Shown here piece by piece: positions 16,941 through 60,115 of a stretch of DNA of 64,000 nucleotides (its first letter is position 1; the number at the start of each line of letters is the position of its first letter). Under the pieces are notes generated by a model. It did not search any database. It was not told the DNA's origin and saw nothing but the letters and a program-made list of their open reading frames with translations. The stretch covers positions 6,510,001 to 6,574,000 of the forward strand of contig CAUWAG010000003.1 of NCBI GenBank assembly GCA_963556695.1, written 5' to 3'. This stretch comes from Anthostomella pinea (Eukaryota; Ascomycota; Sordariomycetes; Xylariales; Xylariaceae). The translations under genes were made by a program, and so were the position numbers.

Positions 16941-16946
16941 AAGTAA

Positions 16947-16972
16947 AGAGTCTTCCTATTTGCACCTTACCG
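16947..16972 (+). repeat. left terminal inverted repeat
   Basis: Exact reverse complement of 42069-42094. Preceded by the direct repeat AAGTAA (16941-16946). The motif TGCACCTTACC occurs within it and again at 16985-16995 as a subterminal repeat. Confidence 0.85.
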
Positions 16973-17769
16973 AAATTCCTTCCTTGCACCTTACCTTAGT
17001 CAGCCACCTAACAACTACCTAATAGCCGGCCGTTTAACCTACCCACTATATTTATAGCGCTTATTTTACTATAATAACAGGGCATTCGTTGCAACTATCT
17101 TTTGATCGGTTAATATCTACATGTTGATAATAATAGTATTAGATTATTACGAAGATATATTTATTACGTAATTAATATTATGTATAGTTCGTTAAAGCGA
17201 ATTAATTAATATCACTTTCGTATTATTTTATTGTTTTTCACACGTTACGTTAATTAAAACATCAGAATATAATACATTTAATATTACATCTTATTAACAT
17301 TATAAAGCTATTTCGTTATAATATAAAGTATTTAACGTTATAATTACAAGGTATTTTACGATTATCTTATTAATATTATGATTTTTAATATGAAATTAGG
17401 TAAAATTATTATAAACATTTTTATATTACTTTTGATAGTAATTTTTATTAGAAGAATTAATTTCAACCGTTGAGTTTATCGATTTAAGTGTAAAAAAAAT
17501 TAAATTTTTTTATATACTTAATACGGTTTTATTTATCAGGTATATATAGCTTAAGTCGTTACCGCTCCCGGAGTTTTAACTTTATATACCGACTTTTTTT
17601 ATTAATATATTCTATATTTGTATAGAGTTTTTGATTTAAAATTTAAAATATTTTTATTTGAACTAATTGTTTTATAGTCGTTTTTAATTGCAGAATAGGG
17701 GTTTCAAGGCTTTTAGCTAGCTAGTACTAGATGTATTAATTTTACCGCTTTATATATAAAGGTATTTTT

Positions 17770-17971
17770 TGTAGGAACAGGCTTGAACGATCAAACATAA
17801 TACTCGAGTATTGGGTCAAGGTCATGATGTTGCTGATGGTTGGATTGGGAAGTCTAGCTGGACCTGCAGGTCTGACTAAATGACCTCACAATCTGGTATC
17901 TAATATCTTATCTAATCATACATGTGGGTCCTGTATAGATGGTGTGACTGTGGAATCACATGGATCCAGCA
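17770..17971 (-). mobile_element. solo LTR, family 1 copy A
   Basis: About 200 bp of normal composition inside AT-rich DNA, reverse orientation, near-identical in layout to the copies at 22184-22385 and 41721-41924. The ends are slightly mutated (TGTAGGA...TCCAGCA instead of TGTTGGA...TCCAACA). Flanking 5-mers do not match, so no target duplication is claimed for this copy. Confidence 0.65.
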
Positions 17972-18058
17972 ATTTAAGTGTATTATCTAATTAGATTATA
18001 TTTAAATAAATATATCATTTCTTACCCTTTCGTTTTGAAAGTTTTAACAGCTTTTAAG

Positions 18059-18301
18059 TGTCACGGCGCTGGACCCTGCCTATGGGCAGGAAGTGGAGGG
18101 ACCCCGGGCGCCAGCTGTCGGCGGCCCGGGTGGACCAATGTGGACCTGAGAACTGACGATATCTTCACTGTTCCCGCCCGAACCTGAATTGTAGCTCTTC
18201 GAGCTACATCCTGTCAATAGAGTTACTTGTAACCCTGCCAGAACCGTAGAGAATAGACTGTCATACGATCGCCTATACTGCCCGTACCGGAGCCCGTGAC
18301 A
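18059..18301. mobile_element. solo LTR-like element, TSD TTAAG
   Basis: 243 bp, GC-rich against its surroundings, ends TGTCACGG...CCGTGACA, flanked by exact 5-bp direct repeats TTAAG (18054-18058 and 18302-18306). TG...CA ends with a 5-bp duplication are the signature of an LTR retroelement. Confidence 0.75.
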
Positions 18302-18683
18302 TTAAGTTAATCATATGATAGTTATAAGTTTAAAAGCGGCGTAATAACCCGTTACCGATTAATTATTTATTTATTTGCTAATTTAAATGTTATTATGTAG
18401 TGTTATTTGGTTTTTAAAATTATTAATACTACGATACCGACCTATTCAAAAAGCTTATATATAAGCTTAATTCATATCTTTTAATAATATTAATAACGCT
18501 TAAATTTGGAGTGCTAGTAATATTTTAAAAAAGCTTTTACATCTTAGTTTTAAAGCATGCGGCTTTTAGATATATAAATAAATAGTTCCTTCAAAAGAAA
18601 TAATGCTTATAATAACGATATATTTGAAAGATAAGCAGTTATAAGTTTTTAATACAATATTGTCATATAGTCATACGAGCGAC

Positions 18684-18818
<135 letters not shown>

Positions 18819-18985
18819 AGTAAAGTTTTCTCGTTTAAGTTGTTTTTATAAGTGTAATATCTTACAGTAAATAAGGTCGACGTGCTTAACTATTCGAGTT
18901 AAAAGAGTATTAACGAGATATTATATATATAATAACAATAAGTAAACGATTTATATCGTTTAAATTTAAGAAATAACTACAAAAC

Positions 18986-19188
18986 TGTGAGATTCTAGAA
19001 GGGTCACAAGCCTTGATGGTGTGAGTGGTCACTACAAATGTTGTTGTCATTCTCAAGTATGCTCGGCAGGGCTAATCTACAGCTAAATACCATACTGCAC
19101 TATGCCAGGGTGGATCCACTGGTCTCATAGCAGCCCCCTAGCATATACTGCACCTAAGGGTACTATATCTGGGATCCAACATCTGACA
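18986..19188. mobile_element. probable solo LTR, TSD AAAAC/GAAAC
   Basis: 203 bp of normal composition, starts TGTGAGATTC and ends ATCTGACA. Flanking 5-mers AAAAC (18981-18985) and GAAAC (19189-19193) differ at one G/A position, which is what RIP would cause in one copy. Confidence 0.5.
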
Positions 19189-19422
19189 GAAACCTAATAT
19201 TTTAAGTGATATCTACTAACATTAAAAAATAGCTACGCGAAAAAAAAGTAACGTATATTATTTAATTGAGTAATAAAATCTCGTTATAAAGTAACGAAAA
19301 TAACATGATTTGCTTTTAAAGGTACGGTAAATCTAATTAAATACAGTATAGTTTAAAGCAAACCGAAGTATCTTTACGAGAAAAATGATATGTAAATCAT
19401 AATATTAATAAAATTTCGTTGC

Positions 19423-19638
19423 TGTCACGATGCCTGCGGCGGTGTGTTGCAATATAGGATTAATTACACAAATAATAAGGTGAGGAAGGAAATGGAAGCC
19501 AGCAAAGTGGTGTGCGCAGCACACACCTTAAATAGTGGTTCTGTTCCTTCCTTATCTAATCTACACGTGACCTGATGACTAAGCATACATCTACTAAGCA
19601 TCTATCCATCCAGGTAGATACGGCTGTACACCATCACA
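19423..19638. mobile_element. solo LTR-like element, TSD GTTGC
   Basis: 216 bp, ends TGTCACGATG...CCATCACA, exact 5-bp direct repeats GTTGC at 19418-19422 and 19639-19643. Confidence 0.75.
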
Positions 19639-20467
19639 GTTGCTTAAAAACCAGAATAATGTTTTTAAACTTAAAAAGAGCTAATAACGGCTACTAAATA
19701 CCTATTAAGTAATTCTTATCGAAATATTATAAAGTATTTATTAAATAAATCTTGTCAAAATATAAACTATTAAGTTATTAATACAGTATAAAGTTACTTA
19801 TTAAAGATTTAAACCTTAAAAAAATACGTATCAAGTACTTATTAAAACAATTTGCATTATTTGAATTATAAAATTCGCGTAAAATATACCAAGAACGGCG
19901 TTATTAAGTACTTATCAAAAAAAACCTGCCGAAGTATTTTTTACGTAATATTTACCGAATAAAGTGTTATTAAAATACTAGCTGTTATTAAATACGATAC
20001 AAAACTACATATTGAAATACGCGGTAATACTTACCGGGATAAATTTAACTCTTAGTAAAAGGTTGATTGTAACAATGTTAATATCTTCTAAATCGTATTG
20101 CTCTTTTTAAAAAACTCGCGATTAAAATAATATAACAATATCTATAAAGCTTAATTGAAAATATCATTCTAAACTTTACAATCTTTACATCGTTAATCGC
20201 ATGAACATATTAGTATATAAAGCGAATAATTAAGAGGTTGACTATATTATTATACGTAAATTAACTATTTAACTAACTAAGTAAACGCTATTATTATATA
20301 TAGTAGCAAACCTTTTTTATCTTACTTATTTAACTGCCACTTGATTAGTTAAAGCACTTACTTGATAGGTCTTTTTAATAAGATATGTCACTGTTTTCTA
20401 ACTAAATATTATCGTATAAATTCAATTATACTAAAATTACCTTTATTATATTTAAAGATCTTTATAT

Positions 20468-20679
20468 TGTCACGGCGAGCGTACTAAGGACCTAGGACAT
20501 GGCCGACAGCAAGCAGCTATTACTCTATTGACGAGGATATCAAGAGTAGAGAGGAAAGAAAGAGAGAGAGAGATAGGTACAACGGGAGGTTGCCCCTTCA
20601 AGGAGATCCTCCGGTCAGATTCTTTCCTTATTGGGAAGTATCGGCTTGTCATGTAGGAAGGTCCTTGCAGGCCGTCACA
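20468..20679. mobile_element. solo LTR-like element, TSD TATAT
   Basis: 212 bp, ends TGTCACGGC...GCCGTCACA, direct repeats TATAT at 20463-20467 and 20680-20684. The repeat is simple sequence in AT-rich DNA, so it is weaker evidence than in the other copies. The ends resemble the 18059-18301 element. Confidence 0.65.
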
Positions 20680-21118
20680 TATATTTAATTAATTTGATAA
20701 CTAACGATTTATAAAGAGGATAAAAGTAAAGCGCGTTTAATATAATCGCGTATAATATTTAAAGCCAAACAATTAAATTAATCACATTATAAAGTATGAA
20801 GTACTATTATAAGTTATTCAGATATTTAAATATCATATAATACTTTAAATATAATAGCAAGTTTAAAATATGTTAAAAGCTTATGAAAGACTTAAAATTA
20901 GCTTTTAAAGAAACGAAAGTAACTTTAATTTTAAAAATTATTATAAGAGATTTCAAAAGCCGGATTTTTCCAGCCTTTAAAGGCTTTTATCTAGTTAAAT
21001 AAGACTTTAAAGATAAAAAACGAGTTTTAAAAAATCGAAGGTATATTATAAAGTGGTGGTTTTAAGGCGTTCAACTAGCTAGTATTAAATATACCGGATT
21101 TACCGCTTTATATATACA

Positions 21119-21543
21119 TGTGATGGTTGCTACATCGCTACTATTGGTGATGGTCCTGGGATCACGTGACAGCACGTGACCTTTTGAACGACTGGTTGTC
21201 CCAGACCCACTAGGGCTCTGAATTATAGGGCGGACACACTAGTCTAGTTGCCCACCAGATTTGGCTGTGCCGCTCAATCTTCTTTTTTGTCAGATACCAG
21301 CGCACCATTTGGGCCATGCACTGACTATGTCACGTGGATGATATTGCACTAGACTGCAACCAGCCACCAGGGCAGAACTAGTACTGAAAACTCGTACACA
21401 GATAGACAGTGCTCATCACAACATTATAATACACTCATCAATTGACCCTCGTATTCAACATTTTTCCTCTTCAGCCGGAGATAGTTATACGTACAAAGTA
21501 AACAAGGGCTTCTATGTCCTATTTACATATACAAAACGTCACA
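21119..21543. mobile_element. probable solo LTR, TSD ATACA/ATGCA
   Basis: 425 bp of normal composition with ends TGTGATGG...ACGTCACA. The flanking 5-mers ATACA (21114-21118) and ATGCA (21544-21548) differ at one G/A position. Confidence 0.5.
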
Positions 21544-22183
21544 ATGCAGTGATTTCGGTAAATTATTTAATTAAATTATATTTAAATGAATAAATCACTT
21601 TTCACCATTTTGTTTTTTAAGCTTTAACAACCTTTAAGTTAATAAATACAATATTTTTTTATTAAAATTAATATTACTACTAGTAATTTCGCCTTTATAT
21701 TACGTGTTTATAATAATATAATTATCATTATTACTTTTGTTATATCTTTGATCTTTAACCTCGTTACTACTTTTATTTATATATATAAAACTCGAATAAA
21801 ATCTTATTATCGTCTTTTCCACTAGCGCTTTTCAATAATTAGCTAGCTTATGGTTATGTTATCTTATTAGCACTTTAGAAAAATATAGCGATCTTTTCAA
21901 CTTCTTTTTAATATAATTTATTATGCCGTTAATAAAAAGCAAGGCTATTATTATGTTTATTTATAAATTTAAAATTAAAATCTTCGTGAAATTTTTAACT
22001 GCTTTTTTATTTTTATTTTTCTTTATAGATTGGTTTAAGATGATTGTATCCTTTAGAATGACACCTTTTTAATTTAAAAATATAAAGGTTAGATAAATTG
22101 AGTTAAGCTTATTATTTAATCCTTTTTAAATATTAAAATAGATTTACGTCTTTTTAAAAAAGGATTAACGTAAATTTCTCCTT

Positions 22184-22385
22184 TGTTGGATCCATGTGAT
22201 TCCACAGTCAAACCATCCATACAGAACCCACATGTATGATTAGATAAGAGATTAGATACCAGATTATGAGGTCACTTAGCCAGACCTTCAGGTCCAGCTA
22301 GACTTCCCAATCCAACCATCAGCAACATCATAACCTTGACCCCATACTCGAGTATTTTAACTGATCGTTCAAGCCTGTTTCAACA
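22184..22385 (+). mobile_element. solo LTR, family 1 copy B, TSD TCCTT
   Basis: 202 bp, ends TGTTGGATCC...GTTTCAACA, exact direct repeats TCCTT at 22179-22183 and 22386-22390. Same family as 17770-17971 (opposite strand) and 41721-41924. The TGTTGGA end resembles the LTR of the complete Copia element at 30562, so a Copia origin is likely. Confidence 0.8.
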
Positions 22386-24609
22386 TCCTTTATGATATTG
22401 ATCTTTAAAGAGTCTTATACTAATAATAAAATCTTATATAATATTCATTTGTTAACGAGTATATAAATATATTTATTAATTTATAAAGGCTTCAACTTGT
22501 TTTTACATAATAAAAAGAACGTTATTAGTTTATACTAGTAGTAGATCAACAAAAAGGAATTATTGAAACATTCTTTTAAAAACCCTATCTCGTATTATTA
22601 TAATATATTTAAATCTTTCTTCGGTATTTTTCTTTCTAAAATATCTTAAAGTTTTAAAGTTAATTGAACACTTTAAAATGTGAGCGCGAGTATTGAAGAT
22701 ATAGTCTTTTAAAACTTCCCAAATCGTTTTCATTGATAATATAACTTATATATTAAAGTTATAATATATTTACGTATAATATATCGCTTACTTTTTAGAA
22801 ATTAAAAGGTTTATAATTAATGGTATAGTATTACTTTTAATTACATATATTAAAATAATTACAAACCCATCCTTTAAGCTTATATAAATTAGTCCGGAGC
22901 TATATATATAAGATAGAAGAAGAAAAAGTTCTATTTATCTTATAAAAAGAAAATTTTATTAAAAAGCGGCATTCATATATCTTTATTACTTTAATTAATA
23001 GTTTATAATATTTTATACAAATTCTTTTAAGGTTAAAAATAAGCTTAATAACTTTATTAGGGTTGATTTTTCTTATCTTCCTTACTTTTGTTTTTATACT
23101 TATTTGTAAGCCAGTTACATTATTAATAACGTTTCTACTAAATTGGAAATATAGGTTTATAGCTTAAAAAAATGTTTTTATCCCTTCTTATAACTTTGTA
23201 TTTTTATCTATAATATTTATATTAACAAACCGATCTTTACATAAAATCTAATAAGTTAACAAATTTTTAATAGTAATAATTATTATTTTTATTATTAATA
23301 AAGGTAAAAGTGCGGTTAAATAGAAAGCCCGTAATAATTTACCTCATATTGTTAAATAATATCATTTTTTATATATTAATACTTTATGTATTATTTATAT
23401 TGATTATTTAAAAATATTACTTTTGAAGCTATATGTAATAATAAAATGTTTGAAAAATAACTATAAGTTATTTTATAAATAAATCATTATACTTAGTCGA
23501 TTTTTACCTACGTTTTTTAAAAACGTTTAATAAAGGCTTATATATTAATGAAGTATTTTTAAAGCGCTAACGGACATTATTCCAAATATTATTAATATTG
23601 TTTATAAATAGTTTTAAGTTACTTTTAAACAATTAATAATATTACGGCAAAGTTTTTATAATTAAAAGGCTTATTAGTTATTAAGTTTTAAAGCAAGTAA
23701 ATATAAAGATTAAATATACTATTGTACCTAGGTTAGTCATCCTAATAAACAAAAAGGCTCTATTTATTGTATAGTTATAACTCTTTTATCGTATTTAATT
23801 AACTGCTATTTAACTAGTTGAAACCTCTTTTATCAATAAGTTTTTCTTAGGTAACTTATATTAAAATACCGTTGGTTTAAAAGACTTAATTACTTTTAAT
23901 CATAATGATAAAGCTTTAAAAGTTCAGACTAATTAAAAGGCGTTATTTCTAATATAGTTTTATAATATCTGACGACGTATATATCTTGTTAAAAGCGTTA
24001 AAAAGATGATAGAAGCTTTTAAAACGCTCAAAACGCTCAAAACTACGATGAAGATTAAACGAACGAAAAAAGCCTGCTTTTTATGTGCTAGTTCAAATTG
24101 AGTGCTTTATAACTCGTAAAAAATGGTTCTTTATACTTCGTATCTTTTTTAACGTGTTATAATATCTATTTATACTACTTTAAACAAAGAGACAGCGAGT
24201 ATGCTGCCTATTTTGGCATGTTCTGCCTCCAAGTCTGGCAGTGCATTTGCCAGCGATCCGTCGCCGCTTTAAGCTGCATATCGCACCATGTGCCACCATG
24301 CACATGGGCCTTGTACTTTGATGTATCGTTCAGAGTACTCATGTCCACGATCACGACGCAAATCCTGGACTCTTAGTCAGTTTGGTATCTGGCACCCATG
24401 CTGTGTCCTTCCCTTCCCTTGTTTGCTCAGCCTGTCAGCAGCATAACCAGAGATGGCTCTTATATTCCTTTTAAATACCAGTTTCTTGCTTCATTTGGGC
24501 AATAATGTTTTTTGGTTTTCTTTTCCTCATTACCTCCAGTTGAATGAGCGCAACGTTTTCTAATGAACTGCATTTATTATGATCTATTATTCCTTATAGC
24601 ATTAATACC

Positions 24610-26045
24610 ATGGCCCGCCAACGTGTCAGTGATGACCCATACGGCTCACAAGTTACTGACGACTTGTACAACACAGACGCATCTTTCTCCGCAGTAGAGG
24701 ATGCAGATGCTGACGACCTCCTTGACGTAGACGAGGATGTATCAAGCCAAGAGAGCAACGCAACGGACGTAGAGGACTTCAGTAATGACAATTCCAATAT
24801 TGCAGATCAAGTCCACCTCTTTGTAAGGAATCTTCATCCGCTGGAGTACTACAAGAGGGCGCTATTAGAGTTCAAGAAGAGTGCTTTTAACAGTGGAGAT
24901 TACAGTTCTGAAAGCACTATACAATTTGATGCAATTAAGAAGCAGTGACAGACGTAAGTCATTCTAGTGCTTATGTCTTCTCATGCTAACGATATTTTTC
25001 TGGCAGGTTCTGTACTGACGTTGTGGGACGGGATCCCCAGACTTGCTTCGAGTCTATTGATATCCGTCTCCTCTACAACTTTTCCGATTGGTCCTTGAAC
25101 CAAATGGCTGGTAAGAATACACAGAAAAAAAGGGGAACAAAGAAAAGCAGTTCACTAGACACAAATTGGAAGGTCTTTCGTCTTGTGTATGAGACGGCCA
25201 TGGGTGCGAAGCTTGATCCAAAATTGAATCACAACATGCATAAGGTAAGTAGGAATTTAATGACCTACCGAAGACCTATTTCTAATATTTTCTTTCAGGT
25301 CTTGAGATCACTGGGAAAGAAACACAAACTGAGCGACCAAAAGAGGGACAATCGCTGTATGACCATTGACGACCTCAAAGCAGAGATTGAGACAACACTG
25401 AGCACGACAAGGAAGTCGTTTGACCTCAGGGAGCTCCGGATTCTTACCGTTTTATTTCTTCTCTTCCTGGCTTCTTTTGGCTTGCGCCCGAAATCTATCT
25501 TGTGGCTCCAATTTCGAGATATTCGGGTTGTATTAGCAAGAGATCCTGATGGTGGGCCGGCCACACAAGCTTTTGATCAAGTTTACTCTCGAGTTTACTA
25601 AGACGTATCTTGGAACAAAAGACGTGTAAGTGTTCTATCCTGGCAACTTAAGGCTTTTTTATATTGATATCATGGGTGCTTTAGTAAGACGTTTACGATT
25701 CCTGAGACCATGTTTGATCCATCTTTGTTTCTCAGTCCTCATATCTTCTTCCTTGGCATCTTGTTCTATAATCAAGCTTTCCGGGCTCCTAGTCTTGTCT
25801 CTTCTCGCCATTTAGACGATCTTGATATCTACGCCGGCAAAAAAGAGTTGCCTTTGCCACTCAGAGACGACCTCAAAGGCGTATGTATATTCCGCCAAGT
25901 TATTACAACTGCTACCGGCCTGCAGATATCACAGGCGGAACCTATCACCTATGGCATGATGAGGGGTTGAATTAAGAGGTTTGGAAAGATTCTAGGCCTT
26001 CAATACCCAACTATCGCATATTTATTGCGGTATAATGCAGGCAAT
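24610..26045 (+). pseudogene. DUF3435 tyrosine recombinase (Starship captain family), broken and truncated
   Basis: Fungal tyrosine-recombinase-like protein with the DUF3435 domain, the domain of Starship captain integrases. The start is the ATG at 24610 after a normal leader. Three introns with intact splice sites are visible: 24954-25006, 25245-25298 and 25626-25684. Family motifs: GLRPKSILWLQFRDI (the RP-containing first catalytic-arginine box), RDPDGGP, EFTKTYLGTKD, FDPSLFLSPH and ELPLPLRDDL. Lesions: TGA at 24946-24948, a one-base frameshift between 25550 and 25580, and a TGA replacing what is normally Trp near 25967. The 3' end, including the part that normally holds the last catalytic residues, is lost where a SINE tail begins at about 26046. 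Intact splice sites with broken frames indicate a gene that worked until fairly recently. Confidence 0.8.
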
Positions 26046-26616
26046 GATTGATTGATTGATTGATTGTATTTATCATGAGTACAGCCCCTCAACAAGGCAA
26101 ACCATGCCTCCTAGAGCCATTGCATCGCAAGTTCGTAGAGGTGTTAGTTTAGATACATTCAGATCTGCGCACGAGCCTATCCTCGCTGTAGCGGTACAAA
26201 TCTGGAGTGTCTAGATGGTTTTAGTCAATATCCAAGCACGATTCTGTCAGAAAAACCTCCTGTCCAGTGACAAAACGACCCAGTGAACCTCAGTCCTCTG
26301 GTGTACACATCGTTCTAATAGCCGTTCAATATATGTCGTATTGGTAGGTGAAATAGGTGTTTGTTATCTGCTGGCGAGGGAAACCACAAGGGGAGAAACC
26401 TCATAAGAGTGGGTGTTGCGGAGACAAACTGCTTGGCTATCGGGCTTTGTGATAATTGGGCCTCTCCACTGTCGTGTGCTGGTTGTTGACTCGTACAAGC
26501 CGGGTCAGAAGGGGGCCAGAAGGGGGCCATAGCAGGATTCAAACCCACTTGTTCTCGTCGCCCACCGCACAAACAAGAACACAACCAGGCGCATTTGACC
26601 ATTGCGCCATACGGCC
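26046..26616 (-). mobile_element. tRNA-derived SINE with (AATC)n tail
   Basis: On the minus strand this starts with a tRNA-like head. An A box (TGGCGCAATGG, plus positions 26599-26609) is followed about 50 nt later by a B box (GGGTTTGAATCC, plus 26535-26546). These are internal promoter elements for RNA polymerase III. A body of about 450 bp follows and ends in TAAATACAATCAATCAATC (plus 26046-26076). The same TAAATACAATC junction ends the LINE 3' copy at 30090-30138, so the SINE probably borrows that LINE's machinery. It sits in the DUF3435 pseudogene. I could not define a target duplication. Confidence 0.65.
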
Positions 26617-26617
26617 A

Positions 26618-29600: not shown

Positions 29601-29842
29601 GAGAAGAGCAAGTTCTTTTTAATAATCTGTCTCCGATAGATAGCTGTTCTTGAAGGACCAGATGGATGACCCCAAGGTCATACCGCCACAACAACGGGGA
29701 TGGGCCCGTGAGCGGGACTGACTGTACTTATTTTCTTGAGACCTCCACAACCCTGCGATGCAGAGGCTCTGGGAGGCGTGGTCTGCACTACTGAGGAGCT
29801 ACCCCCCACGTTAAATACAAAACAAAACAAAACAAAACAAAA
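26618..29842 (+). mobile_element. non-LTR retrotransposon (LINE), RT and RNase H, broken
   Basis: ORF2 of a LINE in several broken frames, 5' truncated. Order: a region ending AWWNDECKAAV (about 26855-26890), the thumb/finger region from 26966, then reverse transcriptase with PGIDTLTVRILKACW, VTADVTGAFDAAL and the GLPQGSPAS box (27850-27880). The catalytic YADD box is replaced by YTDN (about 27945). The C-terminal part runs to 28710, and an RNase H domain follows (IYSDGSQLDD...GWGY, TEVHGAL, DNTSVVDRLNG; 28783-29286). The end carries a zinc-finger-like stretch (about 29400-29500) and a 3' UTR with an (AAAAC)n tail at 29816-29843. Stops include TAA near 27577, TGA near 27929 and TAA near 28037. 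Presence of RNase H fits the Tad1/I-like groups common in fungi; the clade is inferred. Confidence 0.85.
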
Positions 29843-29843
29843 C

Positions 29844-30097
29844 ACTTAGGGGAGAGGAGCACAGAATGGACAAAATTCATTGAGAAGAGCAAGTTCTTTT
29901 TAACAATCTGCCCCCAATAGATAGCTTTTCTTGAAGGACCAGATGAATGACCCCAAGGTCATACCGCCACAACAACGGGGATGGGCCCGTGAGCGGGACT
30001 GACTGTACTTATTATCTTGAGACCTCCACAACCCTGCGATACAGAGGCTCTGGGAGGCGTGGTTTGCACTACTGAGGAGCTACCCCCCACGTTAAAT

Positions 30098-30138
<41 letters not shown>
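29844..30138 (+). mobile_element. second, 5'-truncated LINE 3' end with (AATC)n tail
   Basis: A near-identical copy of 29563-29842 (both start acttaggggagaggagcac and run through the 'ccccccacgttaaataca' end) directly follows the first LINE's tail. The first copy ends in (AAAAC)n, this one in (AATC)n at 30100-30138. It is most simply a short truncated LINE inserted into, or read through from, the tail of the first. Confidence 0.8.
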
Positions 30139-30372
30139 TAGTACCACCCAAATTTATACGAACGGCCTTTAGCTACCGTTAATTAGCATTCTATGGTCTG
30201 CGGTAAAACCCGAATCGCAAAGGCCAAGCCGGATTGAATGGTTTCTTTAACTGCCTGGTTACTCGAACCAAAACTTGCCAGGCCCGATTCCGTTCTGGTG
30301 ACGCTCGTGAAGGTCGCGGGCCAAGATGACTAGGGTGAATAAGGCCTTGACCGCATTATCATCCCGCATGTA

Positions 30373-30561
30373 AGCGCAGGCCCAACCCCTGATAGGATCG
30401 GGACATAGGGGTACTAACAATAGGATACTGGAAGGCGTCGTAACGAGAGGTGGTTTACCAAAAGCCGATACCGCTCGGAATAAGTTCTACTTGGCATTGA
30501 TATACCAACGTGCGGCTGACCTTGATGCGCTGGGTGACGGGAGCCGCCTGCGTGGAGGTGT
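30373..30561 (+). pseudogene. 5' part of an open frame split by the Copia element
   Basis: A frame open from 30373 reads up to the Copia insertion point. If the Copia element and one copy of its GGTGT duplication are taken out, it continues without a stop into 35924-36065. A possible 3' splice site (CTAAC...AATAG) ends at 30423. Motifs such as NKFYLALIYQRAADLDALG are not from a family I recognise. No start codon is found here, so it is an internal exon or a fragment. It is one of the few non-transposon pieces inside the 25-kb element. Confidence 0.5.
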
Positions 30562-30759
30562 TGTTGGATTCTGGGCTACGTTAGCCCATCCATAGTCATC
30601 CTTCAGGATCACCATCCCCATTTGTGACTCTGTCACATACGTGGCCAATATAAGGCCACGTATCCTTTCCTTTAGTATCTTGGATATATATAGGGCCATT
30701 CTGGCCGCTCCAGAGTAGCTGGAATTCCTCTCCTTAATAGAACACTTTGAAATCTAACA
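30562..30759 (+). repeat. Copia 5' LTR
   Basis: 198 bp, TGTTGGATTC...AATCTAACA. Contains a TATATATA stretch that could act as the promoter TATA element. The 3' LTR appears identical by eye. Confidence 0.95.
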
Positions 30760-31006
30760 TGGTAGCATCTCTGATCGATCACGACCTCCAGCAGCCCTTA
30801 CCTTTTAAGCTTTTTTTACTGGTCTGATTCATTCTGATTACCCTCTTTCTGCTTGCGCGCCTCCAGGACTAGTTACCCTTATTGCCACAAGCCTTTAAGT
30901 GTTTCTCCGTCGTAACTGTTCTTTTTATACAGAAAGAGGTCGCTCCTTGGCTTATATTTTGCCTTATTTGTAGGCTAGTCTTACGACGTATTATCCTTCT
31001 TATATT

Positions 31007-34000
31007 ATGTCCGAATCCACCCCAGAGACGGCCCTCGCCTTTACATCCACCTCTATCCCTCGCCTCCAAGACCATCAGAAGCTCGTCGGCGAGGAGAACT
31101 GGGAGGTCTGGGCCCAAACGATGGAGCATTTGCTCACTACTCTCGGGCTCTGGTCTCTTATCCTTGAAGCCATCAAGGCGGACGAGAAGGAACCATATAA
31201 GGCCACAACTGGAGCTGTCGACGCCCCAGCCACACCTTCCGCAGGAGCCTCTTCCAAGCCCCCTGAATTGGATGCTAGTCTGAGCATCAAGAGGTCAAAA
31301 TTATACCTCGCTATCACCCAGAACATCAAGTCTGACCCTGATTCTCGTATCACGGGTTTATTTGACCCTGGTCAGATCTGGATAGCCTTGCGACAGGCAT
31401 ATTCAGGCATGAGAATTGACGCAGTTTTATCCGTTGTAGATAAACTGGCTGCCATTCGATTCCCTGACCATGGAGACAAGTTCGTGGGCAACTACCGCAG
31501 ACTAATGGACAAGGTCCTGCGGCAAAATATCACATATCCTCCGAATATTCGCATTGCCAATTTCCTGGCTGCTATTCGGACGGCTTTTCCAACCCTTCAC
31601 CGCGAAATCTCGAAAGATTATAACCGTGGAATCTTCCCTACGACCGAGAATCTCTTGTACCGGCTCCAGGAGGAGATACAGATTCGCAAGGCTCAAGATG
31701 AGACCTTTGCCACCAACTTTGGCAAGCCTGCTACGCCTAGTAAAGGCAAGAGCAAGTAGAAGAACAAGGGGAAAGGCAGTAATCACCCATCTCTTGATGG
31801 CCCCAGAACCCCTGGAGTCAACCAGGGCTCTTCCAACAGCAATACCACGGATCCTATCTGGTGCTATGAGTGCGGAGAGCTTGACAAGAAGAAGGGCCAC
31901 CTTGGATGCAACAAACGCATCCTCAGCCAGATCATCCAGGCCTCTGAGAAGGCTAGGAAAGATGGAAGGCCTTCAAGCAGCGCTCCCACTCACCAGAGTG
32001 GACGCACTGGCGCTTCTGACGCCGCTCAATGGTGCAATTATGCCGATAAAGCCATCTCCAGTCAATCTGTCCTCACTCAAGGACCACATAGCGCCAACCA
32101 GGGAGCGAGTACCAATCTGATCGACATCGTTCATGCCACGACAAGCACAGACTCATAGCTATTTGACACAGGCTCTACCGTTCCTATTTGCAATAGCAAG
32201 AAGTGGTTTACTCGCCTTCGAATAGACCCTGACCTGGTCCCCTTTAACACTGGAGGAGGCCCTGTTACTCCTCAAGGTGTTGGCGATGTGGAGATACCAT
32301 TCATTACCTCCAACGGTGATACCGTCACTCGGACAATCTCTGGAGTACTATTTGTGCCTTCCTTTCCAATCAACATTCTCTCGGGAGACCAGATGTATCG
32401 CCAAGGATGGTATTTGATGATCCGCGATCTGTTTGACCCCTATGGTACATGGGTGGCATCATTCCACCAAGGAATGTACGTTCAGACAGAGATCCCTAGT
32501 GTCCAGAAGGACGTATACGGGATCAATCAAGCCCCGGACGTGTTCACCAATATGGTATCCGAGGATTCTTCCCAGGAACTGACCTCTCAAGCCAAATCTG
32601 TGGCGCTGAGACTACTCCACCGCTGGCATACAAGACTTGGCCACCGATCTATTGGTGACCTGATCAAGACAGCCAGTATCACCAAAGGGATTGAATTGCC
32701 GCCGAATGTACGAGAGCTGGCAAAAGAATTCACCTGTCTGGAATGTCTGGAGTCCAATCTACGTCGCCTAGTCTCTCGAGTTGAGCAGGAACATCCAGAT
32801 CATGCTTTAGACCTGGTCCATATGGATACAGCCAAGCACTCTGTCCAAGGCTATGATGGTTCTCTCTATGCCACCGTATTTGTGGATGGCAAGTCTCGTT
32901 TGAGGGAGTACTGCCCTCACGAGAAGAAAGGGGAAGCTTCCGACCAAGCCATTCGCTACTGTGAATGCGCTCATACCCAGTACGGGCGTTATCCGAAGCA
33001 ATTCCGAATGGATGGTGGTTCTGAATACGCGAGATTCAAGCAATGGGGAGCTGAACGTGGTATCCTGTTCGAAGTCAGCGCTCCATACACTCCCGAGCAG
33101 AACGGAGTGGCTGAGAGATCCTTTGGCGTTATACACGCTCTCATTCGCAGTATTATGAAGGATTCCGGGCTACCTGAAGCCCTTTGGCCGGTTGTTGGAC
33201 CTGCCGTATGTGATAGGCTCAATGTGAGCTATACATCTTTCCTCCAGGGCGTTAAGAAGACTCCCTTTAAAGTTTTCTTTGACGATCTGAACCCTGGAAA
33301 GGATAACAAGCCTGATTTGACGAATTTACTGTCAATCGGGCAGGCCGCTGTGGTCCATTTGCCGCAGCAGCGCTGCCCTAAGGGAGACAAGACCACTCCA
33401 CACGCAAGGAGAGGTCGTATTCTTCGTTCCCTTGGTTCCAACCAGTACCAGGTGTATCTTACACACCTGAGAAAGGTTGTAGTTACTGCCCATCTTGAGA
33501 TTTTAGATGGGTATGTACTTTCAAGGGATTTGATCCACATCTTTCCAAACTTCCGTGGTACACTCGATGACTATGAGACAACCAGACCCGATGCTGAAGA
33601 TCTGCCAGTGCCGTCTTCACCAGAGGGCGCTCACGATCCTCAGCATATATATATCGAGTCAGATAACGGAAGGGATGGTAGAGATGATTCACCCCAACCA
33701 GTTGTCACGTTAGGGACCCCTCTTGGGTCCCCTGACGCTTCTGATAATGATGATAGTCATCATTCTGACTCTGGATATAGCAACCCTGAGCCTAGTACTG
33801 CTCTAGCTGACTCGATTCTTCTATCATCTGAACCACCTCGTCAAGAAGTAGCCCCAACGGCTGCTCCGAGGTCAAGAATCCAATCAGGGCTCAACCCAGA
33901 GAATGTACTCTCCGGAGGACGCACTCGGAGGACTCACAACCACTACGTGGCCGAGTCTTCCACCCCTGGCATATCTCCACATGTTACGATCGAGGCATCT

Positions 34001-35682
34001 TATGCCAATTGGCCGTCTTCTGACCCTGATCAGGCACTTCCCCGTAATGACGAGCCTTTTAGCTACAAGGAAGCCATGGAGTCTGCCGAGGCACCTCAAT
34101 GGCTGGATGGCACTCACACAGAGATACGGGCATTGCTGCGCAATAATACCTTCATTCCTTTGTGGAGGTCTGATCTGCCTGCTGGGCGTAAAACTCTCTC
34201 TAGCCGCAATGTCTATAAGCGGAAGAGGGACTCTGACGGCAACACCTCTCGGTACAAGGCTAGGGTGGTTGTACGAGGCTTCATGCAACGCCATGGCCTC
34301 GACTATTTTGAAACCCAGGCCTCAGGCGCTCGTACTACCACCTGGAGGCTCCTTCTAGCCATTGCTGCCGTTCTGGACTGGGAAATTGACCAGATGGATG
34401 CTGTATCTGCCTTCCTGATGGGAGAACTGGATAAAGAGATCTTCATGGAGACGCCTGATGGTCTCTCTGACTTCTTTGAGATGTATCCAGATGAGAATAC
34501 CATCAACTGGAGACCTGGCATGATTATGAAGCTTGCGAAACCGCTATATGGGCTTAAGCAGAGCCCCAGGCAGTGGCAGAAGCGCATTCGTAGCGCTCTG
34601 AAGGACCTCGGATTCAACCCTCTGGTCTCTGACAACGCAGTCTATGTCAACATCAGCCGTGGCATTATAGTGATCAGCTATGTCAACGATTTCCTCATTT
34701 TGGGGGCTAATCGTGACGGGATCGCTGCCTTCAAGAAGGAACTAGGTTCTACATTTGAGATGAAGGACATGGGAGCTGCTAAACACTTCCTAGGAGTCCA
34801 CATTGTCAGAAACCGAGCTGAGAGGACGTTATATCTCTCTCAACAGACGTATGTGAGAAGGACTGTGGAGGCGTTCGACCAGCAGAACACTGGCAAGATG
34901 AACGTGCCGATATCTCCTCAAGCAGTGGAACAGATGGAGTCCCTGGACAACGACCTTGAGGTCGATACACGTCCTATTCAGACATACCAGTCCCTGATCG
35001 GTTCTGAGAACTTCCCTGCGTCGTATACGAGACCAGATATTGCATACTCTATGGGTGTTCTCTCGCGATACCTTCACAACCCTGGCTCAGCCCAATATAA
35101 GGCCGCTCTGGGCCTACTTCGCTACTTGTGGCACTCTCAAGATCTTGGGATCAAATTTGGAGGTCCCGAATATGTCAGGAAGACCCCCCAGGAGGTCCTT
35201 GAGATGATTCCGGATCTGCTGGTTGGTTACTGTGATGCCAGCTATGCTGGAAGCATCAAGACCAGCGCCAAATCCACCTCAGGCTACCTGTTCACGTTTG
35301 CTGGGGGCGCTGTCTCCTGGGCATCCAAGCTGCAGACTGTTGTGGCTCAGTCTACTGTGGAATCGGAGTACTACGCACTCTCTGAAGCCGTCAAAGAGGC
35401 TGCCTGGTGATGCTGGAACTTGGTTTCACTCTGAATGCTATCAACATCCATTCAGACAGTGCTGGAGCTATTAATTTGGCTCAGAACGCTGAATTCCATC
35501 GTCGAACTAAGCACATTCGAGTCAGGGAACACTACATTCGTCAGGAGATCTTGGAAGGCCATATACGGCTCTCTTTCCTTGGAACCAATGAAATGCCTGC
35601 AGACGGTCTCACCAAAGCTTTGATAAAGGCAAGGTTCTTCAAGTTTCTGGAGTTGCTAGGACTGGTTCATGTAGAGGGGTGA
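31007..35682 (+). pseudogene. Copia gag-pol polyprotein, interrupted
   Basis: Single gag-pol frame from ATG 31007. Gag domain to about 31760. A CX2C zinc-knuckle-like CYECGELDKKKGHLGC follows (about 31861). The protease motif LFDTGS is at about 32159. Integrase has WHTRLGHRS...CLEC and the acidic triad in DTAKHS, MDGGSEYA and EQNGVAERS. Reverse transcriptase has AVSAFLMGELD and YGLKQSPRQW, but YVND in place of the catalytic YVDD (about 34679-34690). RNase H has CDASYAG, STVESEYYAL and DSAGAI. Lesions: TAG at 31757-31759, TAG at 32156-32158 and a frameshift with TGA at 35408, after which the frame resumes to 35682. The two TAGs are in the same frame as the rest. The element cannot encode a full active polyprotein as it stands. 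Confidence 0.92.
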
Positions 35683-35720
35683 TATTCTGGTTATGTTAAT
35701 TCCCTCAGTCTGAGAGGGCG

Positions 35721-35918
35721 TGTTGGATTCTGGGCTACGTTAGCCCATCCATAGTCATCCTTCAGGATCACCATCCCCATTTGTGACTCTGTCACATACG
35801 TGGCCAATATAAGGCCACGTATCCTTTCCTTTAGTATCTTGGATATATATAGGGCCATTCTGGCCGCTCCAGAGTAGCTGGAATTCCTCTCCTTAATAGA
35901 ACACTTTGAAATCTAACA
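35721..35918 (+). repeat. Copia 3' LTR
   Basis: 198 bp, same sequence as 30562-30759 as far as I can read, followed by target duplication GGTGT. Confidence 0.95.
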
Positions 35919-35923
35919 GGTGT

Positions 35924-36065
35924 ACGTGTGTTCAATGAGGAGCACGTTACGCAGGTACCGGACTGGGTGAAAGCAATTAGGAAGACGGTGGTGTTGCTGG
36001 ACCACATGTGTGGCCTTGAAACCCGGTTGACTGGTAGATTATCGTGCCTTTCTTCGCAAGGTTGA
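35924..36065 (+). pseudogene. 3' part of the open frame split by the Copia element
   Basis: Continues the frame of 30373-30561 across the target site (GGA GGT GTA CGT), then VFNEEHVTQVPDWVKAIRKT and ends at TGA 36063-36065. Uninterrupted reading across the insertion point supports a real coding exon before Copia arrived. Confidence 0.5.
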
Positions 36066-36228
36066 TACGGATATCTGATCTTGATAACGATGCGGTTAAT
36101 ATACGGATGTGAGTTACAATGACAATATGTAAACCACCCCCCCGCCCCCCTCTCCCTTTCTCTCTCTCTCTTTCTAGGTGCCAGTCCTGCATATACTAGG
36201 AGCTTTCCAAGCTAATCTAGATGATAAG

Positions 36229-36816
36229 TTATGCCCACCATTCTCTTAACACCGCAACCTCCCTTTCCATCTCAGCTTCCGTTTCCTCCTTCGATTGATC
36301 TTTCCCGGGTGGGTGTGCCCACTCGTAGTCGATGAGCCAGAAGTTCCCATGCTTCTTGAGGAACTGAGAGCTTGCAAGGTCATCTCCATACAGGACGCCC
36401 TGTTTGTGGAGAGCTTTCAGCTTGTTCACACAGCTTTCCAAATCGCCTTCACCTAGCGCATCGGCGTCATCGATCAGTTCAAGGAGGATACCAACAGGCC
36501 TGCCGTCTTTCTCGACTATGGCCAGAAACTTCGGACCGATAGATTTGCCTTCAATCGCCCTGTAGGCCTCCACCTCGGCCCCCACCAATCTATATGCCAA
36601 ATCTTTACTGAGCCCCGTGTTCCAGTGCTTATACGCCACTGTGCCGAACCCCTCGACCTCAGCTTTATATACTGGGTGGCCCAAATGGATGTCCTTCATG
36701 TTCTTGATGTCCTTCAATTGGACTGTGGGCTTCTGGGGCCATTCCACCATCCCGTCTTCCCAGAAGGTCCTCTTGGACAGAATGTGGGCCTGGGTACGCG
36801 AGGTCAGCCATATCAT
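36229..36816 (-). CDS. small protein-kinase-fold protein
   Basis: 195 residues as one exon. The region VLYGDDLASSQFLKKHGNFW followed by LIDYEWAHP resembles the catalytic (H/Y-G-D-x-x-x-x-N/Q-F) and metal-binding (I-D-Y/F-E) loops of kinase-like phosphotransferase folds (fungal kinase-like/APH type). A preceding PVGILLELIDDAD looks like the hinge. The N-lobe ATP lysine region may be YKAEVEGFGTVAYKHW. Start at ATG 36816 is uncertain: CCCAG at about 36791 could be a 3' splice site, with an exon further upstream. It is the only apparently intact non-transposon gene inside the 25-kb element and could be cargo. The substrate is unknown. Confidence 0.65.
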   Translation of the reverse strand: MIWLTSRTQAHILSKRTFWEDGMVEWPQKPTVQLKDIKNMKDIHLGHPVYKAEVEGFGTVAYKHWNTGLSKDLAYRLVGAEVEAYRAIEGKSIGPKFLAIVEKDGRPVGILLELIDDADALGEGDLESCVNKLKALHKQGVLYGDDLASSQFLKKHGNFWLIDYEWAHPPGKDQSKEETEAEMEREVAVLREWWA

Positions 36817-39019
36817 TCATCAAAGGTCATAGGTTGCGATATCGAATGTAGGTTGTGCCTGTGCCGGACCCTCGTACTTACCAGTACATGACCTTGGCTT
36901 AGGAAGCCAAGTAGCCCAAGGCAAAGGGCACGCTGGAAACGCATTTCAACCCGGTCTTGATTGATGTCTCTTTGGAGTTGTAAGACTGCGACGTGGCTTC
37001 TAACTGGACGCAGCTGTTGACTGGATATGGCTGGTGGTTGGCTGTGGCTATAAGTCGTGGGACCTGGCTGGAAATTTGATCATGTCGATTACTAATTATA
37101 GACCAACGCATAGCTCGGTCTCCATGAGTCCACGTGTGACGTATCTGAAGGCAGAGAGTGTGACAAGGAGCTCGGTGTGCGTTGAAATCATACCGAAGGT
37201 CTGACAAGGCCCCAGTTCCACAACGCTGTTTCTCTTTAATAATAGTCCTAACAAAGCAGTAGGACTAGCATGAAAGGCCTACAGGGGACCAGGATGGTAA
37301 ATAGTAGCGTCCTCCACCACCCCAGTTATATAGATATGTACAAGATGTACAGCCCCGAAAGATGCTAGTAGGTGGCGACGACGATGACATAAATCTCTAA
37401 GCATATATGTTGGGTGTGTCTACACTTCTACATCTAAATGTGGGTATGGAGCGCGTTCCTAATTCCATCCTGGACACTTATAAAACAAGCCTGGTGGGGC
37501 GCTGAGTCCATACTGAGCAGTCAGTCTCTGATTAGGTATAGATACGTGAAGGCCTGAATCCGGAATCCTACATCCAACTCCATCGTTGCGATCCGTCCTG
37601 TAAGTGTGGGCAACCCGAGCATGACCAAGACGAAAGAGCAATGTTTGAGCGACGTTCCCTGGTTCCCCACATGCGTCAGGAGGATCGCTTTCCGGCGCTG
37701 ATCTTTCTTGTGTCTTTTTCCGGCGATCGTCCCATCCTTCATGTATTTTTGTTGTGCCGTGTTCTAGATATAGCGCGACTTGTTGCTAATTTTACCCACC
37801 CGCTCACGGTTGGCGTCAAGGACACGGCTCCAGAGGACGTATGGACTCATACCGGATTTCCCAAGACCGATCCTAACGGAACCAAGGTATACAAAAAACG
37901 CTGGCAAAGCTGTTGTAACAAGAAGCAAAACCGAGGAAGCCAAAGTCTTCACAGACTGGCCGAAATCGCTATCACCCTCACACGTAGTTGCCTATTATTG
38001 CATAGCAAGAAGGCCAAAAGGTTGCAAATCTGCTGTATTGGTGTTGTTATTATAGAAGGTCAGGAGGTGGTACGCAGGTGCAGTAGATGTGGGCAATATG
38101 CCAACTCAAGTGGGTCACGTGACCACGCAACACACCCCCATTGGCCATTACCTGTTGGATTAAAGGTGAGCCCAGAGGGCACCTTGATAGGTAGACAACG
38201 GAACCTAGTTGTTCCGTCCCGATCCAGCCCCCTCTGGCACAAAGCTGCCACGGTCGCACAGGGACACTCCAGAGACACAGAATACACACAGACACACTTC
38301 AACCTCACGATTGGCTCAAATTTGACACAAGGTTACTGGCACGCGCGAGAGTGGCGATACGCGGGAGGATAATGGCACGCAACGCAAGTTTACGCACGTA
38401 CTAAATGAAGGAAGCGTGGACCCCGGACCCCCTACCTACACGATTGGAGTAGCAGAGCTACGGGATGATGATGCTATAAGAGTGGGACATGGCTTTGAAA
38501 CTTATCGATAAGCTCACGCTAGTTTGAGCTCACTTAGGTATTGGATACAGTCACCGCCTTGGAGCGTCTCGATTTTGTACTCTGCCTATCGTGCGTAGTA
38601 ACATGGACATTCGACGACTGATACGATGCGCCAGGTGATACAGAGCTGACAAGTATTGTCAGATGATAGATAAACACCTGACTGTTGGAATGAAAGAGGC
38701 GATTGAATGCCTTGGACGTCTTTGCTGCTTTCGCTAGTACGTACGGCCCAACCAACACCGTGTAAGTTTCTGCATAGATACTGTTGAATACACGGATAAT
38801 GATTGATTCTATTGATTGTTGTGCTCTGTGTGCAGAGATTGATTATCTGTCTTCTTGGTGGGTCAGATGCCCTGTGCGTCTCTGCCCCACTGGAGATCTT
38901 CCGGTGTCTATCTCCGGCTCCTATTCAGCATCTATTGCGCCAGGTCACCTGATGCAGCGCACTGACCACTACAGATGGGATGTCAGACCTGGTGGGAGGT
39001 CAGACCATCACAGTAATAA
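36817..39019. other. inner non-AT-rich stretch without a confident gene
   Basis: Normal base composition. The only notable frame is 37641-38372 on the plus strand (243 residues, ATG start). It is longer than expected by chance but has no recognisable domain and odd composition. I leave it as an orphan frame. Confidence 0.3.
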
Positions 39020-42000
39020 CCGTTAACCTAGCTTTTAAAAGCTTGTAAAAACTAAATACGCGGTTATTTTGACTTAACGTTATCCTCGATTACCTAGCGG
39101 TACTTATACTTAAAGGCTTAATAAACGAATAATATTTCAACGAAGTATTAAAGTCGGTAAAATCGGGGGTTTTATAATTATATACCCGCGGTAAAAAAGA
39201 GTTACTTTTAATATTATTATTAACGTTTAAAATAATGTTAATAAGGCTTAAAGACGTATTAAATATACCGTTTATAAGGCTTGAAAAGATATTAACATAT
39301 ATATTAATAAAACTTTAAAAGAGTATTACCGTATATATTAACAAGACTCGAACTTAAAGTATTATTATATATATTAGTAAGGCTCGAATAACTAGGCGTT
39401 TAAGGTTTCATTTTAAAGCAGCCTAGTTTTAAGTATATAAATAAATAAATAATTATTAAAAAGGAAATAATGCTTATAACAACGGCAAACTTATAAAACA
39501 CATAGTTTAAAGAGCTATAATTTTATTCCCGAAATAAAATACCTTTAATTCAATTAATTCTTTAATATATTAATCGGTAATATCTACCGGCGTTTTATTT
39601 TACCGCAAATCGAAATTATAAAAAAGGCTAAAAGTTTCAGAAAAAGCAAACGAGATTTTTTAATATGTATAAAATAATAATACTATTAATAGTTTCAAAA
39701 GCCGCTTTTATTATAATAAACCTTATTATATCTTTAACACGTATATAATATATATATCGGCACGACTGTCGTTTTAAATACGGCCGGCTTCATAATAACA
39801 AAAATATATAATTATTAAATATAATACCTTATATTATATACTGCTTCATCAAAACAACTTTTCGAAAAAAATCTTTTATTATCTTACGCGTTTTAAGGCT
39901 TAAAACCTCGGTAAATAAGTAGCGGTAGCAGTATAATTATAAACAGTCGTAAAAAATATAACTTCGTATTTATTCTCGTTTAACTTATAATTATAACACT
40001 CTATTATAATAAAGTAAGGCTGATGTGTTCTAATAGCTGGAATCTTAGAAGGTAACAAAATCATATATATATATATATATATAAACTGTTATTAATAAAT
40101 AACTTGTACTATAATCGTTTAATTCTAAAAAATAACTATAAAATTTGATAAAATTTGTAAAATACGAAGCTTTTGAAGAAGTTTAATATAAATTAAAGTA
40201 TTCAAATGTATTAAATAAGGGGGTTACAAGAGTTGTTATCGCTTAAAAACGAAATTAAAACCGATCGGCTCGTAAAAACGAAGGATTTATTAAGGGAATC
40301 ATTCGTTATATATCACCGTGCTTTTTAAAGTACTTTGAACGTGGTAAAAATCACTGTAAATATAATTATTATTATTATTATTAGAGCAAAATAACTCCGC
40401 GGGTAATAGAACAAAAGAAAAGTATGTTATGATTTAATAAATTAAAGGTTTAATAAGTTAAGATTTCGGCGTAAAGCAGCGAAAATATCGTTTAACTTTA
40501 ATAAATATAGCAATTTTAAGTGAATCTAATATAAATTAAAACAAAGCGAGGTAACTTTACAAAAAAGATAATAATAACGGCGTTATTAAGCCTTGAAAAC
40601 CCTAATAAAGCTATTAATAATTTCAATATCGTTCGAATCGTTCATTTAGCGTAATAAACGCTAGTAAGGTAATATTAAAGCCTTTAAAAAAACGAACTAT
40701 TAATATGGTAAATTAAAACGCGAGTCTTAAAAGCAAGGTTACGAGCTATTGATACGGCGTGGTAAAACGGCTTTAAAAGTCACGTTATAACGCTATATCA
40801 TTTAAATCGCGTCGATCGGCTTGAAGGCTCGCGATTAAAAATATATAGTAATATATACAAAGCTTAATTAATAAAAAAGTTACTTTAAACCTACTATCCT
40901 TTTACGGTTGTTAAAAAAATATTGTTATATGAAGCGAATAAATATAAAGGTTGAATATACTATTATACCTAGGTTAATTATCTAGCTAAGTAAAAGAACT
41001 ACATTTATTATATAATTATAACTCTTTTATTTTATTTACCTAGTAACTACTTGATTGATTAAAACACATCTTATAAGTAAGGTCTTTTAAATAAATTATA
41101 TTAATATTTTAACTTTATAAAATGTATTTTGATTTAAATACCAATACTATAAATAAGTTTTTAATAGTAAAATAAAGCTAAATTTATATAAAAGGGTTTT
41201 TTTGTATTTTTTTGATTATTACTACTAGTTATTTATAACAGTATAATAAGATTTAGCTTTTTAAATGTGGTTAATAATTTCATTACTATAATAATATAAA
41301 ACCTTAAACGTTTAAACATACCACGGCCGCTTTAATTGTATATAGAATTGATATGAGTAAATAATTTATTACCGTTTTTATTATTCTTTTTGAAGTTCAT
41401 ACTATGCTTTTTTATGATATTAAAACTATAAGTTTTTATATAAATATACAAAATAACCTTAAAATTATTAAAAAGAACCTTATAGCCGTAATAATAATTA
41501 AGTAAAAGTAAAATGGTTGTCGCGGTTAAGAATAAAAATAATAAGCTGCGTATATTATTGATATTGAATTTAACGATTCTTTAATCGCTATCAAAGTTAA
41601 TAGTAATAATATTAAGTATAACGATCGTAGGAATAAAAGTCATAAAAGTAAAACATTTTATTTAAAGTATATAAAAAGCAAAGATAAATTACACAACGTA
41701 AATATAATAATACTATTAAATGTTGGATCCATGCGATTCCAGACTGCAAACCATCTATACCAGGACCCACATGTATGATTAGATAAGATAAGATAGTGGA
41801 TTGAGAGGGCACTTAGCCAGACCTTCGAGTCCAGCTAGATTCCTCTCAATCCAACCATCAGCAACATCATGACCTTGACCCCATACTCGAGTATTATGAT
41901 TGATCGTTCAAGCCTGTTCCAACATTAAAAGAATTTAATAAATTATAGCAATATAAAAGAACTAATTGCTAATTATAACTATAAAATGTAATATAAATAA

Positions 42001-42060
42001 GGTTTAATGCTAAGCGGTAGTAAGTAATAGCAGCTGGCTGATTAAGTTAAGGTGCAAATA
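39020..42060. repeat. AT-rich right arm of RIP-like decayed repeats
   Basis: Same composition as the left arm, without coding potential. It shares diverged segments in direct orientation with it: 'aaataatgcttataacaac' at about 39465 (left 18598) and a segment at about 40930-41100 related to 20220-20390 and 23700-23870. It also holds an (AT)n run at about 40064-40084. Confidence 0.7.
41721..41924 (+). mobile_element. solo LTR, family 1 copy C, TSD TTAAA
   Basis: 204 bp, ends TGTTGGATCC...TGTTCCAACA, exact direct repeats TTAAA at 41716-41720 and 41925-41929. Confidence 0.82.
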
Positions 42061-42068
42061 AGGCTGCG

Positions 42069-42094
42069 CGGTAAGGTGCAAATAGGAAGACTCT
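42069..42094 (-). repeat. right terminal inverted repeat
   Basis: Exact reverse complement of 16947-16972, followed by the direct repeat AAGTAA (42095-42100). Confidence 0.85.
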
Positions 42095-42174
42095 AAGTAA
42101 ACCCTAGACGACTAATCCGCGGAACCTTATTACCTAGTCGTCCACCTTTAGTCTGTACCATACCTGACATCAAT

Positions 42175-59240: not shown

Positions 59241-59243
59241 ACC

Positions 59244-60111: not shown

Positions 60112-60115
60112 GAAT

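Follow-up and report, generated by a model that had tools for sequence, protein, structure and literature searches.

The window analysed here, 64,000 nucleotides of the genome of Anthostomella pinea (contig CAUWAG010000003.1, positions 6,510,001 to 6,574,000), contains a stretch of about 25 kb that is framed by perfect terminal inverted repeats and encloses a remnant of a gene of the DUF3435 recombinase family, which mobilizes Starship elements. This stretch is very probably a Mutator-like element (MULE) killed by repeat-induced point mutation (RIP) and inflated by nested insertions, that is, an ordinary nest of transposons and not a Starship. The sequence evidence for this comprises termini shared with other elements of the genome, an 8-bp rule of target duplication, colinear copies without a 4-kb insertion, the layering of the RIP index and the separate ends of a Copia retrotransposon and of the DUF3435 element. 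From it we infer how long the MULE originally was, in what order the events took place and that the two ends originate from the same insertion. A MULE DNA transposon of a few kb would have inserted by cut-and-paste, making an 8-bp target duplication; this MULE and at least one element with features of long terminal repeats (LTRs), which had landed in it, would then have been heavily mutated by RIP, leaving AT-rich arms without usable genes. Miniature inverted-repeat transposable elements (MITEs), a DUF3435 tyrosine-recombinase element, elements resembling long interspersed nuclear elements (LINE-like), a Copia element and other DNA would later have entered in or between the arms, so that the ends came to lie 25.1 kb apart. 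The 25-kb unit as such probably never moved.

Positions 16947–16972 are the exact reverse complement of 42069–42094, and AAGTAA lies directly outside both in the same orientation. An earlier note on this DNA had described them as a 26-bp repeat with a 6-bp target duplication; the exact repeats and flanks are present, but this frame is slightly misplaced, and the outermost A/T of the 26-bp repeat is part of the duplications. The corrected outer element occupies 16948–42093 (25,146 bp) and has 25-bp perfect ends beginning with GAGTC. The left terminal inverted repeat is perfect over 16948–16972 (plus strand) and continues as a weaker inverted match to about 17075, and the right one is perfect over 42069–42093 (minus strand); the inverted identity of the ends is 84% over 63 bp and 71% over 130 bp. 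In the 8-bp frame, the target duplication is represented by CAAGTAAA on the left (16940–16947, plus strand) and TAAGTAAA on the right (42094–42101, plus strand), with 7/8 bases equal, and the host flanks of the site read ...CCTCGAGCA on the left and CCCTAGACG... on the right.

Genome searches were carried out in the single genome of A. pinea, where the window lies on the contig designated C2; PMC10763133 gives the A. pinea F5 genome as 53.7 Mb with 51.85% GC. A protein encoded in the left flank of the unit is 96% identical to the A. pinea protein Uu.00g043200 over 69% of the query. The left 120 bases used as a query gave 22 matches. A 23-base terminal motif, with up to 3 mismatches allowed, was found at 32 places, 16 per strand, and the backward control gave 0 and 0, which places the inverted repeat far above chance. 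Seventeen close or window pairs, comprising the window pair and 16 others, account for 23 of the 32 termini. The 16 others span 218–967 bp, all less than 1 kb. The repeat is found as the end of small elements, which is the first half of what the same note had named as refuting its reading; the second half does not apply, AAGTAA being duplicated flank, not element sequence. Nine termini are unpaired within 1.5 kb, and a search on the expected side, over 20 kb for six of them and over 10 kb for the other three, gave no partners.

Duplication lengths of 5–11 bp were compared across the 17 pairs, with 272 cross-pairs of family flanks as the control. Only 8 bp was enriched, with a mean mismatch of 0.21 in true pairs vs. 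0.58 in cross-pairs. At most one mismatch at 8 bp was found in 12/17 true pairs and in 5/272 cross-pairs, and the pair C16:3217082, whose flanks were read by hand (one mismatch), brings the number of such pairs to 13/17. The family of termini makes 8-bp target duplications. The proposed TTAC target site, read from TTACTT on the minus strand, presupposes a 6-bp duplication, which is not the length found in this family, and is abandoned. By the 8-bp family rule and the 7/8 flanks, the two outer ends do behave, as had been claimed, like those of a single transposon that duplicated its target.

A single insertion, with its target duplication, is much the likelier origin of both outer ends by sequence comparison, but unproved, because random family flanks match equally in about 2% of pairings. 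The flank match alone has this chance level of about 2%, and as evidence of one insertion it is good without being absolute. That two separate ends of the MULE family were joined by rearrangement, their flanks agreeing by chance, is highly unlikely: the centre is indeed rearranged at a junction of LINE-like remnants, and the AT-rich family flanks match equally well in the five random pairings mentioned, but true pairs match this well in most cases (12/17).

The left arm of the outer MULE-like element is represented by three pieces. The first, 16948–17680, is colinear with a copy at C7:2199959 (72%) and, from 17314, with a copy on C4 (L055; 67%); the second, 21692–22180, is colinear with both copies; the third, 22389–23614 (minus strand), aligns with the minus-strand MULE domain found in the C7 copy, and is itself without a Pfam match. 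In detail, the C7 copy tracks the left arm from the terminus, covering 16948–17677 at 72%, 21694–22167 in two pieces at 67–69% and 22392–23482 at 62%, and the C4 copy tracks 17314–17680, 21692–22168, 22404–22540 and 22590–23610 at 62–71%. E-values of the colinear matches are 1e-19 to 1e-131, compared with about 1e-8 for the best match when these subjects were reversed; at identities near 60%, composition alone produces weaker matches, and these were left out of use. The right end of the element lies at 41930–42093; matches of the right arm to the C7 and C4 copies (about 58–68%) were no better than, or close to, the reversed-sequence controls, and were not used. Between the first and second arm pieces there are 45 bases in the C7 copy, 40 in the C4 copy and 4 kb in the window, so the block at 17.68–21.69 kb is a later insertion.

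When its stops are read through, the minus strand of the C7 copy matches the MULE domain PF10551 (29.5 bits, cut-off 27.6; E 1e-6), and a whole-genome PF10551 search returned it as one of two matches, with 31.4 bits and five TAA inside. The other match, C9:1225404–1225694, is situated in a 329-aa open frame without stops. In the frame comparison, the MULE frame was the best for C7 and the window (291, next 277) and for C7 and C4 (406, next 369). A match of the C4 copy to Globin was weak, fell below the cut-off and was disregarded. The window copy would once have coded for a MULE transposase, as its C7 relative does. The element also has terminal inverted repeats, which in MULEs are frequently long, and its 8-bp duplication lies within the range of 8–11 bp given as the rule for MULEs in PMC6446971; a subterminal direct repeat, TATTTGCACCTTAC, is present in two copies near its end. 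A hAT transposon, first considered for the 8-bp duplication, was dropped: among 17 matches to the hAT dimerization domain genome-wide, none lies within 10 kb of the listed termini, the nearest being about 13.8 kb away, and with a MULE domain in the C7 copy, the assignment of the outer element to hAT is scarcely credible.

The composite RIP index separates the arms from the centre. In the arms (16947–17680, 17680–21690, 21690–22180, 22386–23600, 23600–24180, 39020–41700 and 41930–42094), it is +0.3 to +1.0 at a GC content of 19–31%, while in four segments of the centre, 24180–39020 (about 14.8 kb), it is -0.3 to -0.6 at 44–50% GC. Three arm copies of one MITE have an index of -0.8 to -1.1, and a short insert, 18055–18303, has +0.26. 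Since the centre is without the RIP signature and the LTRs of the Copia element are identical, most of the 25 kb would have arrived after the decay of the outer element. The earlier view, in which a single element of about 25 kb arrived, is not supported in the light of the 16 paired relatives under 1 kb, the C7 and C4 copies without the block at 17.68–21.69 kb and the centre without RIP; the later nested insertions that this view also admitted are present, for example, the Copia element with its own duplication.

The DUF3435 remnant noticed earlier is present at 24174–26044 (plus strand) as the 5' part of a multi-copy element. This 1.9-kb fragment matches profile positions 1–206 with three stops; it has its own conserved 5' terminus at 24174, 7.2 kb inside the outer left end, and its right side is cut by a LINE-like remnant. 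The first ATG of the open frame is at 24610 (plus strand), 436 bp inside the terminus, as that of a captain, the recombinase of a Starship, would be. A DNA search with 24150–26050 gave 24 matches besides self, 15 of which start at query base 17–25, and near full-length matches have 85–88% identity. The 5' borders were read in 13 copies, namely, the window copy and 12 of the 15 (L056, L057 and L066–L075); all start with ACT, and nine are exactly ACTACCTTAAAC or its -T variant. TTAC was found across the border in only three of the 13 copies (L056, L057 and C16b), and no claim is drawn from it.

The fragment's own 5' end removes the difficulty, raised in the earlier note, that the recombinase lies at the wrong distance and in the wrong orientation relative to the outer ends. 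It is very improbable that the whole 25 kb moved as one, bounded by the 26-bp repeats, whether as a Starship or as some other large element mobilized by the DUF3435 recombinase. Such an origin would be in keeping with the DUF3435 remnant, with a non-transposon open reading frame (ORF) as possible cargo and with the frequent location of Starships in AT-rich DNA and other transposons (PMC12134995); against this, the DUF3435 part has a terminus of its own, documented in 13 copies, well inside the outer end, the outer termini are those of small elements with 8-bp duplications and of a MULE relative, and the RIP state differs between arms and centre. The candidate was rejected on the separate 5' end and the RIP layering; the captain is not the first gene at the outer 5' end.

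Copies L056 and L057 have 2.7 kb in common, the match of L057 stopping, as judged by eye, at a MITE; past base 2700 of L056, ten other captain copies match a further 0.56–0.96 kb (among the best 40 of 55 candidates). Because most copies match L056 only this far, the DUF3435 element looks compact, and sequence comparison suggests a length of perhaps about 3.5 kb. Three copies on C5 (near 3.57, 3.70 and 3.89 Mb) share up to 1.6 kb more at 94% beyond the captain, which represents either a larger element or a local duplication. The remainder of the element was not found in 24000–42100.

Another candidate considered was that 24174–39013 (at most 14.8 kb) is a smaller, damaged Starship, or a DUF3435 element, which entered the RIPed MULE carrying the orphan ORF as cargo, the LINE-like and Copia elements being later additions. 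It would agree with a captain gene that opens the block at a 5' end of its own and is read inward, with the sharp RIP border on both sides and with the orphan ORF within; but the block lacks the 3' part of the DUF3435 element, position 39013 showed no partner end, the right part is not common to copy L056 over 6 kb, and the short shared extension of most copies suggests compactness, the three C5 copies sharing more. Overall, such an element is unlikely.

The DNA upstream of all 13 DUF3435 borders is unrelated AT-rich sequence with 10–28% GC (101–141 bases each). As a yardstick, 360 of 6,917 115-base windows (5.2%) were below 30% GC in 14 further stretches, each about 10 kb long; the measure is rough, since these stretches were picked for MULE-type termini and did not include the two belonging to the AT-rich C7 copy. 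In the analysed window outside the 25-kb unit, the count was 0 of 1,937. The AT-rich borders suggest either targeting of RIP-decayed DNA by the DUF3435 family or survival in it. A tentative proposal, to which we give somewhat less than even weight, is that A. pinea possesses a compact DUF3435 element, with the 5' end described and little or no cargo, that inserts in AT-rich DNA made by RIP, decayed MULEs and LTR elements serving as landing pads; this would explain why the 5' end of a recombinase element lies within a decayed transposon here. According to PMC12134995, reported Starships are 15 kb upward in size, DUF3435 genes occur without cargo more often than with it, and many Starships sit in AT-rich DNA and other transposons; one Starship family is said to target AT-rich sites (PMC11623301). 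In the papers searched, neither Starship nor DUF3435 was found together with Anthostomella, and no further search was made for this locus.

Several results weigh against the interpretation of the stretch as a RIP-decayed MULE nest. Pfam searches found no MULE domain in the C4 copy or in that of the window, the weak matches lying below the curated cut-offs, and the frame comparison between these two was best in a plus-strand frame (237 vs. 208). The second terminus of the C7 copy was not found in 20 kb, and with nine of the 32 termini also lacking a second end within the 10–20 kb searched, a long member of the family may exist. The centre is rearranged, with the DUF3435 remainder absent, so that the two outer ends could in principle stem from different insertions. 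The transition excess between copies is small (transition/transversion ratio 0.9–2.9), and the dinucleotide signature is therefore the main support for RIP.

The arms of the MULE contain further repeats. The AT-rich insertion of about 4 kb in the left arm (17681–21691, borders approximate) is without a counterpart in the C7 and C4 copies and is split by MITEs. LTR-like direct repeats were found near its ends (17687–17763 with 21045–21121, and 17964–18059 with 21544–21639), and it is presumably an LTR element. MITE copies without RIP, recognized by repeat comparison and RIP index, are located at 17770–17972 (minus strand), 22183–22385 (plus strand) and 41721–41925 (plus strand). For the last of these (about 205 bp), 36 of 45 other matches listed from the best 40 of 591 candidates were at least about 200 bp long with 95–100% identity; since most listed copies are about full length and nearly identical, a recent burst of this MITE is indicated. 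A RIPed repeat at 23631–23968 occurs again at 40866–41207 (65%) and partly at 20208–20359. In the RIPed right AT-rich arm (39020–41720), 40795–41172 repeats 20081–20456 of the left 4-kb insertion (68%), and as both right-arm segments recur in the left arm, at least part of the right arm is a RIPed repeat. Other right-arm resemblances are near the control level, and a second LTR-like relic there has weaker support.

The centre begins, after the DUF3435 fragment, with LINE-like remnants (26045–30142), represented by a minus-strand piece (26045 to about 26616) and a plus-strand piece (about 26918 to 30142). The latter contains RNase H and a weak RVT_1 match, and both end in a TGAT/ATCA-type tail. 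The two remnants stand head to head, and the remainder of the interrupted DUF3435 gene is absent beside them; a rearrangement or deletion occurred at about 26.6–26.9 kb. The Copia LTR retrotransposon (30562–35918, plus strand) has LTRs identical at 198/198 positions, an open frame of 1083 aa with RVT_2 and integrase, and its own 5-bp duplication, GGTGT, at 30557–30561 and 35919–35923.

A gene segment at 35956–37770 (minus strand), which aligns in three pieces (71–78%) with a paralogue on C7 near 4.652 Mb, may be captured or duplicated. The ORF 36229–36816 inside it corresponds to the annotated Uu.00g043260; no Pfam domain was found in it at E 0.01, and a protein search gave only the A. pinea protein itself (one of 129 candidates). 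Gene capture of the Pack-MULE type was examined, as a host-gene segment is present between the ends. Carriage by the MULE is disfavoured, and the segment looks later, because it shows no RIP and is situated on the far side of the rearranged LINE-like junction. Short dispersed repeats follow at 37817–37996, 38152–38329 and 38776–38930 (within 37817–38930), at least the second of which is present in many copies.

Outside the 25-kb stretch, GC-rich DNA at 55740–60185 contains inverted repeats of 38–68 bp (75–84%) lying about 3–4.4 kb apart; four ORFs tested in this region gave no Pfam match above the cut-off.

A perfect pair of terminal repeats with matching flanks can thus mimic a giant cargo transposon while only framing a nest. 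The two can be told apart by the duplication length of the whole family, by relatives without the insertions and by RIP layering. The 13 DUF3435 5' ends, all adjoining AT-rich DNA, bear on the relation of cargo-less captains to Starships and on target choice.

Among known systems, fungal MULEs such as Hop of Fusarium oxysporum and VdMULE1–3 (PMC3441728) resemble the outer element in the MULE domain, found here in the C7 relative, in ends of tens of bp, in an AT-rich 8-bp duplication and in subterminal direct repeats. VdMULE1 of Verticillium dahliae is described there as 3,613 bp long, with 86-bp ends, the 8-bp duplication ATTGAAAA and subterminal direct repeats. Unlike the complete elements published in that source, which are 3.4–3.6 kb, the ends here lie far apart through insertions, and the transposase is unreadable in the window copy. 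Starships with a DUF3435 captain are similar in the position of the DUF3435 gene near a conserved 5' end, its inward reading and its location in AT-rich DNA; however, neither direct repeats nor a 3' end were seen for the window DUF3435 element, which is a fragment nested within the outer ends and whose copies look compact. Ascomycete genomes hold RIP-decayed nested transposon islands, in which younger non-RIPed insertions lie in an AT-rich RIPed matrix. The stretch described here has the same matrix and younger insertions, and differs in that its outermost ends are well preserved.

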